Below, in pieces: positions 2,437-50,936 of a stretch of 64,000 bases of DNA. Each line of letters starts with the position of its first letter. Position 1 is the first letter of the stretch. The DNA is from an uncultured Gemmata sp. (GTDB lineage Bacteria > Planctomycetota > Planctomycetia > Gemmatales > Gemmataceae), in contig CALDUT010000020.1 in NCBI GenBank assembly GCA_937924775.1, positions 1-64,000 on the forward strand, written 5' to 3'. The translations under genes and the position numbers were made by a program. The notes below the pieces were generated by a model. The model ran no database searches and was not told where the DNA came from. It saw nothing but the letters and a program-made list of their open reading frames with translations.

Positions 2437-3624
2437 CTAGCGCCACTGGCCGCGGAAGAGGGTGCGGCGCTCGCCTCTGGCGTCGTCGTTTAACAACAGT
2501 TCGTGCGGGTCTGCGGCATCGGCATCCGGCAAGGGAACGACGACCAGATCGGCACTTTTGCCCACCTCCAAACTGCCGCATTCATCCGCCCAGCCCAACG
2601 CTTCGGCCCCCGCCAGCGTGGCCATCCGCAACACGATTTCCCCGGGGCAATCCGGATAACACCGGCGTAAAAACCGAGCTTCGGCCAGAACATCCAGATC
2701 GGGATTAGAAGCCAGGCTATCGGTACCCAGACACACCCGCACGCCGCGAGCGAGCCATTCCCGAAACGGATGCGGCGGATGCCCAAACGCGGCATGGGTG
2801 CGGGGGCAGTACACAATGCTGTGCCGGTTCGTGAGAGCCAAAGCCAGGTCGGGGGGCAAGTAATTGGCGTGAACCAGCAGATACCTTCCCGCCGGCGGTG
2901 TTTCCGTCAGCAGTTTCTGCCAGGTGATCAGCCCGGCAGCATCCCACACCCCCAATTCTTGAAGGAAATCGACCAACGGCCCCTGGTGGGCGTTCAGAAG
3001 TTCGATTTCCGCAGGGAATTCCGCCAGATGCGTGGCGACCAGAGACGCACAAGCGGCCCAGGCGAAGAGGGTCTGGCGGGCGCTGTACGGGGCATGCGGG
3101 CTGAGCGCGGACCGGCAGGTGGCGGTGGACGGATGGTGGCCGAGCCACTGCGCGGCGGCCGCCTGAGCCCACGCGGCCCGCTCTTGGGTTAAGCCAAGAA
3201 GTTCCCAGAAAACGACGGCCCGTGTGGGAGCTTCGGCCAGCCTGTTCCAGGTGCGGCCATCGGCGGAAATATCGCCAATCAGGGTGGTACCGTAGCGCAG
3301 GCATTCGGCCAACCCGTCGCGGATGTCGGCTTCCACCTGGTCGGGAGTGCGGGTCCGTCGATACGCAATGACCGCACGCAACCACGCGGTGAAGTGGTCA
3401 GGATCGGTGGGCGGGATCTGTCCGCAGGCCCCGCTGAGGTCCAGATGGGTATGGGCGTTGACCAAACCCGGAATGATCGCGGCATTGCCGCAGTCGAGAT
3501 CGGGGGTGCGGTGGCCGTGCGGTTCGACGGCGAGAATACGCTCGCCGCGGATAGTGACGATACCCCGTTCCAGCGGCGGCCCCGCCACAGGGAATATCCA
3601 CCGCGCGGAGAGTGTGAACAGCAT
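2437..3624 (-). CDS. Amidohydrolase-family deaminase (COG0402 / ATZ-TRZ type)
   Basis: 395 residues, the usual length for metal-dependent TIM-barrel amidohydrolases acting on amino or amidine groups. Visible ligands are HTHLD after a short N-terminal beta-sandwich, SPHAPYS, the H in ATHLAEFPAE, the H in LLVHANYL, and GTDSLASN with the catalytic Asp near the C-terminal third; the end SLEVGKSADLVVV is the family's closing beta-sandwich. Possible substrates in this family include S-adenosylhomocysteine, guanine and 6-amino-6-deoxyfutalosine. No menaquinone genes are nearby, so the substrate is open. ATG 3624 is preceded by ggagg about 12 nt upstream. Probably monocistronic, since a hairpin separates it from the upstream gene. 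Confidence 0.85.
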   Translation of the reverse strand: MLFTLSARWIFPVAGPPLERGIVTIRGERILAVEPHGHRTPDLDCGNAAIIPGLVNAHTHLDLSGACGQIPPTDPDHFTAWLRAVIAYRRTRTPDQVEADIRDGLAECLRYGTTLIGDISADGRTWNRLAEAPTRAVVFWELLGLTQERAAWAQAAAAQWLGHHPSTATCRSALSPHAPYSARQTLFAWAACASLVATHLAEFPAEIELLNAHQGPLVDFLQELGVWDAAGLITWQKLLTETPPAGRYLLVHANYLPPDLALALTNRHSIVYCPRTHAAFGHPPHPFREWLARGVRVCLGTDSLASNPDLDVLAEARFLRRCYPDCPGEIVLRMATLAGAEALGWADECGSLEVGKSADLVVVPLPDADAADPHELLLNDDARGERRTLFRGQWR

Positions 3625-3652
3625 GCCGGCGACCCGCCTCCAGTCCCAGAAA

Positions 3653-3694
3653 TGAACAGCCGATCCACGTCAGGAATACGTATTCGGCTGTTCA
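3653..3694 (-). terminator. 11-bp stem-loop between GNAT-like gene and amidohydrolase
   Basis: Arms tgaacagccga (3653-3663) and tcggctgttca (3684-3694) are perfect reverse complements around a 20-nt loop. It sits 20 nt past the stop of the minus-strand gene at 3715. The T-run (cttttt) is on the plus-strand side; on the minus strand the tail is only mildly U-rich, so termination efficiency is uncertain. Confidence 0.5.
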
Positions 3695-50354: not shown

Positions 50355-50936
50355 TCAATGCGCCGAAGCATCGGAGATGTGATCATGTGAAATCGGTGTT
50401 GCCGATGGAAGCTGCCGCAGCAGTGTGGGGATGGAGGGCCGATCCGTCGGCTCGGCGGAGCGGTACGCGAACAACAGACGACGCTCGCGGGTGATGAGGA
50501 AATCGCCCCCGAGCTGGAGGAGGTCTTCTCCGCGATAAGGGCGTTTCACCCGGTAGCCGCGAAAGATGCCCCGCAAGTAGCCGCCGAGTACTCGCGGTTT
50601 GAAAAACGTCCACCAGCGCGTCCGCTCCAGGCCCAACGCGTTGTAGGCCTCCCGGTGCGGGTCGCACACCAGCGGAACGTGCCAGGTCGCGCGGGCGGCA
50701 TAGAGTGCCAAAACGTCTGGCGTCGCTTGCGACACAGCCAGAAGCGAGCATCCGCGCGCCGCGAATTGTTCGCGGGCAGCGTCCACCTCACCGAGGTGGG
50801 CATTACACAGAATTCACGCCAGATGACGCAGAAAAATCAACAACAGATACTCCGATGTGCAAAATTCCGACAACCGAACGGGAGATCCGTCCGCCTTCCA
50901 AAAAGTGAAATCTGGAATTTCGTTGTGGCTTGTCAC
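50355..50936 (-). CDS. Selenoprotein candidate: peroxiredoxin-like (AhpC/TSA_2, SelL-related) with UxxC
   Basis: 193 residues if TGA 50814-50816 is read as selenocysteine. From GTG 50936 the frame gives IPDFTFWKADGSPVRLSEF, then LLLIFLRHLA, then U-I-L-C (Sec41, Cys44), then NAHLGEVDAAREQFAARG and LLAVSQATPDV, DPHREAYNALGL, and the late LQLGGDFLIT. This is a complete AhpC-TSA_2 thioredoxin fold, with the UGA exactly at the first Cys of the CxxC. Without recoding, only a headless 143-residue frame from GTG 50786 remains. A SECIS-like hairpin follows (50783-50799). 28 nt after the upstream glycosyltransferase stop; the ribosome binding site is weak. Confidence 0.75.
50783..50816 (-). promoter_or_regulatory. 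UGA codon with bacterial SECIS-like hairpin
   Basis: On the minus strand, TGA (50816-50814) is followed by a perfect 7-bp stem ccacctc/gaggtgg (50799-50793 and 50789-50783) with apical loop GGT. The first loop G is the 22nd nucleotide after the UGA. Bacterial SECIS elements have a short stem, a small loop with G in the first two positions and lie about 16-37 nt after the UGA, so all three criteria are met. Confidence 0.7.

Follow-up and report, generated by a model that had tools for sequence, protein, structure and literature searches.

Classical SelL is characterized by a UxxU motif with a diselenide. It is mentioned as a peroxiredoxin (Prx)-like selenoprotein common to prokaryotes and eukaryotes (PMC2398784), and Prx-like selenoproteins with UxxC as well as UxxU have long been known (PMC2398784, PMC1794560). 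An inventory from 2026 comprising 119 families contains a Prx-like thiol:disulfide oxidoreductase with UxxC/UxxU (PF00578) and a Prx-like cd02970 protein with UxxS (PMC13188914). The NCBIfam family NF040769, "SelL-related redox protein", the Pfam family PF13911 and the name SelL are not listed in this inventory; NF040770, the accession directly after NF040769, stands in its table as a selenoprotein family. NF040769 may have been folded into the PF00578 row. Selenocysteine (Sec) machinery was reported for planctomycetes, including Gemmata obscuriglobus, in 2016 (PMC4807772).

The window analysed here, a stretch of 64,000 nt, belongs to a genome of the Gemmata group. On its minus strand, positions 50936–50355 are almost certainly one gene, with an internal stop codon that is read as selenocysteine and at which standard gene calling splits the gene. 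The frame starts with GTG at 50936, contains a single TGA at 50816–50814, is otherwise open and ends with the stop TGA at 50357–50355. With the internal TGA translated as Sec, 193 residues result, including U41-I-L-C44, in which U41 takes the N-terminal position of a CxxC-type redox motif. An in-frame TAA (50948–50946) sits 12 nt before GTG 50936 and bounds the frame, therefore this GTG is the sole ATG, GTG or TTG start before the conserved N-terminal residues. As the original prediction had it, ordinary gene calling reaches the frame ending at 50355 only from GTG 50786 (50786–50355, 143 aa), and translation bears out its continuation upstream via one TGA to GTG 50936. The added residues, among them IPDFTFWKADGSPVRLSEF and LLLIFLRHLA, are present as described and supply the missing N-terminal part. 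Translation restart or two separate genes would make the 143 aa the true product and the upstream 40 codons a leader peptide, and this is indeed what gene callers would give. However, we consider this very unlikely, as the N-terminal 40 residues form the opening strands of the fold and can be aligned to homologues, and the 143-aa form has no UxxC motif; it is a truncated frame and not a real gene. Ordinary annotation shortens such genes, so that their products lack the redox centre and seem non-functional. For the locus as a whole, we hold with great confidence that it is a functional gene for a SelL-related, peroxiredoxin-like selenoprotein with Sec at position 41.

The read-through protein matches NF040769 with 185.5 bits over residues 6–175, that is nearly full length, at a curated cut-off of 120 bits. 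In Pfam it matches AhpC-TSA_2 (PF13911, 64.5 bits) and also AhpC-TSA. These matches confirm the assignment to the SelL-related AhpC-TSA_2 family that had been proposed. We found no difference between the window protein and NF040769, so this kind of protein is already known to curators under that accession. With SelL of aquatic animals and bacteria it shares the Prx-like fold and a redox motif that begins with Sec; its likeness to the PF00578 and cd02970 entries likewise consists in a Prx-like fold with Sec at the CxxC site. The reference to known SelL-related proteins with UxxU or UxxC was thus right in the family, but the motif here is UxxC (UILC) and not the UxxU of classical SelL. Because of this motif the protein can form at most a selenenylsulfide. 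UxxU itself is present in one locus only, L109 from a Chloroflexi MAG (match 3128–3658), where two TGAs yield U-L-P-U, the classical SelL motif. A "ULPU-containing selenoprotein" is listed in PMC5029168 and may belong to the same family as L109. Among the other AhpC-TSA genes of the window's own genome, 15 further matches, none has a TGA (0/15). The window gene joins a family that may have been under-recorded so far.

The original prediction had made selA, selB, selC (tRNA-Sec) and selD in the genome a point to be checked, and all of them are present in the host assembly (4.79 Mb, 97% complete). The tRNA-Sec scores 72.9 bits and is also found by ARAGORN, with anticodon TCA; profile matches reach 567.6 bits for selA, 410.2 for selB and 387.9 for selD. 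TGA serves as a plain stop at the end of the selenoprotein gene and of several neighbours, therefore the codon is not reassigned genome-wide. The same genome probably possesses a second selenoprotein, formylmethanofuran dehydrogenase B (FwdB; TIGR03129, 486 bits), judged by a single in-frame TGA in the context SHTSL-U-HGP (L191:1129-2535; contig C11 near 83.1–84.5 kb). The motif UHxP is listed for FwdB as a known selenoprotein family (PMC13188914), and UHGP fits it. A search of this genome for FdhA (TIGR01553) gave no match over the cut-off; one weak match led to the FwdB gene with its TGA.

In a set of 59 related genomes, TGA occurs at the same codon in homologues down to ~33% identity, and the frame is open on both sides of it, clearly more than chance would give. 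Between the nearest relatives changes are concentrated at third codon positions both before and after the TGA; to judge from the alignments, purifying selection acts on both sides. Homologues beginning only after this codon had been named as an observation that would speak against a selenoprotein. What we see is the reverse: they start before the TGA, share it and are collinear across it. In a tree of 29 sequences, one clade of 21 comprises 20 Sec forms (TGA) and a single Cys form, L018 (TGT, motif CAAC), which is nested within the Sec forms and retains the hairpin sequence described below. It reads as a Sec-to-Cys change, and this close relative offers a natural comparison between the two residues. 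The UGA thus stands at a Cys position, with TGT in L018 and Cys also in class-level relatives.

A genome-wide scan of 84,980 species' genomes yielded 80 loci, two of which are unreadable at the site (in L121 the match begins after it, L150 has no proper motif match). All readable loci, 78 of 78, have TGA there, a count to be read with the caveat that the query alignment was built mostly from TGA proteins; the scan pattern itself (QLGG) sits elsewhere in the protein, therefore the scan does not select for TGA. These 78 loci come from Planctomycetota, Acidimicrobiia and other Actinomycetota, Chloroflexota and Acidobacteriota. Related genomes with the TGA version have selA over the cut-off in 23 out of 23 cases, not counting a 65%-complete assembly in which a selA fragment was found, whereas genomes with only Cys forms mostly lack it (Fisher p = 1.2e-5; 2e-4 by a conservative count). 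Could the TGA be a nonsense mutation in a pseudogene, or a miscalled TGC or TGT in a gene that truly encodes Cys? The existence of Cys relatives, L018 with CAAC and those at class level, would fit such a reading. However, numerous independent assemblies, belonging to several phyla, share the TGA, which excludes a sequencing error, raised already with the original prediction; together with the purifying selection on either side and the complete Sec machinery this makes a pseudogene or an error so improbable that it can practically be neglected.

Some genomes possess two family members: G017 one Cys and one Sec form (L169 is the second copy), G026 one Sec form and one without TGA (G026:C1:3120887-3121387). 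A search of viral contigs found no relatives.

A bacterial SECIS (bSECIS) hairpin is predicted at 50799–50783 on the minus strand, CCACCUC-GGU-GAGGUGG, with a perfect 7-bp stem, a GGU loop and -10.0 kcal/mol on its own. The stem, the loop and the agreement with SECIS rules are as originally predicted, but the spacing from UGA to loop is 21 nt and not 22 nt. The hairpin conforms to all four published bSECIS rules: a loop of 3–9 nt on a stem of 4–16 bp, G in the first two loop positions, a spacing of 16–37 nt and an MFE of at most -7.5 (PMC13188914). A scan by these rules was passed by 25 of 27 planctomycete sites, versus 13% of the codons used as controls within the same genes. Taken alone, the window hairpin is not striking against dinucleotide shuffles (z = -1.48), nor is the window's own copy (L009) unusually stable against synonymous-codon shuffles (z = -0.39), and the Rfam scan of the locus gave nothing above the gathering score. 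For the group, synonymous-codon shuffles gave a modest effect (mean z -0.84 versus -0.24 at control sites, p = 0.007). Since codons for HLGEV are prone to form the same palindrome anyway when the genome is GC-rich, covariation was used in place of this test. Across 28 sequences, 94.4% of the stem cells are paired, and sliding the partner by 1–3 columns lets pairing fall to 39–61%. Changes on both sides of the stem number 11, versus 2.3 +/- 1.3 in shuffles, none of 500 being as high. The outer pair varies between C-G, G-C and U-A and joins position 3 of one codon with position 1 of a codon further downstream. In the aligned sequences the stem thus displays compensatory base changes, and it is this comparison, not the window alone, that supports the hairpin.

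Beyond Planctomycetota, only 28 of 51 loci have a hairpin that the simple bSECIS scan accepts, though other SECIS classes exist (PMC13188914). In a large set of ULPC relatives from Acidimicrobiia and other Actinomycetota (L112-L161), many of which fail the scan, a different hairpin, often of the type GCGGUCGC-CGUGC-GCGACCGC with the loop 26 nt after the UGA, may act as a SECIS.

Together with the machinery, the hairpin suggests that SelB, bound to it just 3' of the UGA, would deliver Sec-tRNA-Sec and that the ribosome would insert selenocysteine at position 41. The evidence for Sec is drawn from sequences, which leaves some room for the UGA being decoded otherwise, as Trp by a code change or by insertion of Cys; the Sec machinery may insert Cys at UGA when selenium is scarce. 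We regard such a decoding as highly improbable, however, as TGA is the normal stop in the neighbours and at the gene's own end, the UGA falls in an alignment column with a redox Cys, the replacement found in L018 is Cys, and the SECIS stem covaries.

What kind of enzyme would result from Sec insertion? The AlphaFold model, computed with an alignment of 37 members (pLDDT 93.6, pTM 0.87), is a confident peroxiredoxin-like fold with helix 1 at residues 42–53. The model puts Sec41 at the N-terminal end of helix 1, followed three positions later by Cys44, within a peroxiredoxin-like thioredoxin fold; a redox pair that starts helix 1 of such a fold is the arrangement of AhpC-TSA_2/PRXL2 proteins. 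Its top match in the PDB is human prostamide/prostaglandin F synthase (PRXL2B; 9us9/9usa, TM 0.71/0.83), whose C44/C47 CxxC corresponds to U41/C44 of the window protein; in 9usa these two cysteines are mutated together. The human enzyme shares 16% identity, has Cys and not Sec, and its substrate is unlikely in bacteria. The profile alignment pairs U41 with the first Cys of the ResA motif CEPC, in line with the claim that the TGA stands for the first Cys of CxxC, and C44 with the second; the C44 column is also that of the peroxidatic Cys of peroxiredoxins. With canonical peroxiredoxins (AhpE, BCP/PrxQ) the protein therefore has the core fold and this aligned Cys in common, but not the motif PxxxT/SxxC: in FLRHLAUILC, Sec stands where Thr or Ser is found. 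No signal peptide is apparent, therefore the protein is probably cytosolic.

The most likely chemistry would be an attack of the Sec41 selenolate on a peroxide or disulfide, upon which Cys44 would resolve the intermediate by forming a selenenylsulfide and a reductant of thioredoxin type would regenerate the enzyme, by analogy with PRXL2/prostamide synthase-type enzymes that have CxxC. The protein would accordingly reduce peroxides or disulfides via a Se-S intermediate. A competing view, which concerns only the chemistry of an otherwise real selenoprotein, sees a ResA/TlpA-type thiol-disulfide reductase in place of a peroxide reductase. It has the alignment of UxxC with the ResA motif CEPC in its favour, as well as the replacement of Thr by Sec in the absent Prx motif. 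On the other hand, both the family and the nearest full-length fold are of PRXL2 type, neither a signal peptide nor an anchor is apparent, unlike in ResA/TlpA, and the neighbouring gene encodes a peroxidase. We regard this view as possible, if somewhat doubtful.

The genes around the locus all lie on the minus strand. Transcription would pass from an exosortase of the EpsH family (56926–55994; PF09721, 203.7 bits) through a Wzc-like chain-length protein/tyrosine autokinase (55893–53617; Wzz and CbiA domains, weak tyrosine autokinase matches), an EpsI-like gene of the exosortase cluster (53761–52886), a bacterial sugar transferase of the exopolysaccharide cluster (52803–52060; PF02397, 191.8 bits) and a family 2 glycosyltransferase immediately upstream (52038–50965; PF13641/PF00535) to the selenoprotein gene, which is followed immediately by a di-haem cytochrome c peroxidase (CCP_MauG, 50285–48726; PF03150, 166.8 bits). 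The EpsI-like gene is named by position only; it gave no Pfam or NCBIfam match, despite its conservation in the operon (31–80% identity). Whole or in part, Gemmata and further members of the Gemmataceae share this order, including a case with only 34% identity of the selenoprotein (L105). Beside the selenoprotein gene of several more distant relatives neither neighbour is found. Within the genus, 11 of 11 genomes with the selenoprotein gene at this place have the peroxidase orthologue too, and four genomes have the peroxidase without the selenoprotein gene. The exopolysaccharide context thus was seen correctly at the outset, but the selenoprotein gene is no oddity at the end of this operon; it belongs to a gene order conserved in Gemmataceae. 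This order lets us infer that in this family the gene is transcribed together with the exosortase-type exopolysaccharide genes and the MauG-type peroxidase, and it suggests a redox or peroxide-handling role tied to envelope polysaccharide work.

Nearly all sampled members of the family, from several phyla, have kept Sec, and the family recurs beside exopolysaccharide genes and a di-haem peroxidase; this retention and recurrence point to a testable role for selenium in planctomycetes. We tentatively combine these observations, with our confidence falling a little short of even, into the reading that a UxxC branch of the SelL-related family is widespread, nearly always has Sec (Planctomycetota, Acidimicrobiia, Chloroflexota, Acidobacteriota), has no entry of its own in the 2026 inventory and has become fixed in the exosortase/exopolysaccharide and MauG-peroxidase set of Gemmataceae. 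If true, selenium would be tied to envelope polysaccharide assembly in this family.

An eroded form of the operon, which could instead be an assembly fault, is seen in another genome of the genus (L179:3-2976 in G004). Here the Wzc-like gene is followed by a 59-aa EpsI-like scrap and a 47-aa glycosyltransferase scrap; the selenoprotein gene is gone and the peroxidase that comes next is intact.
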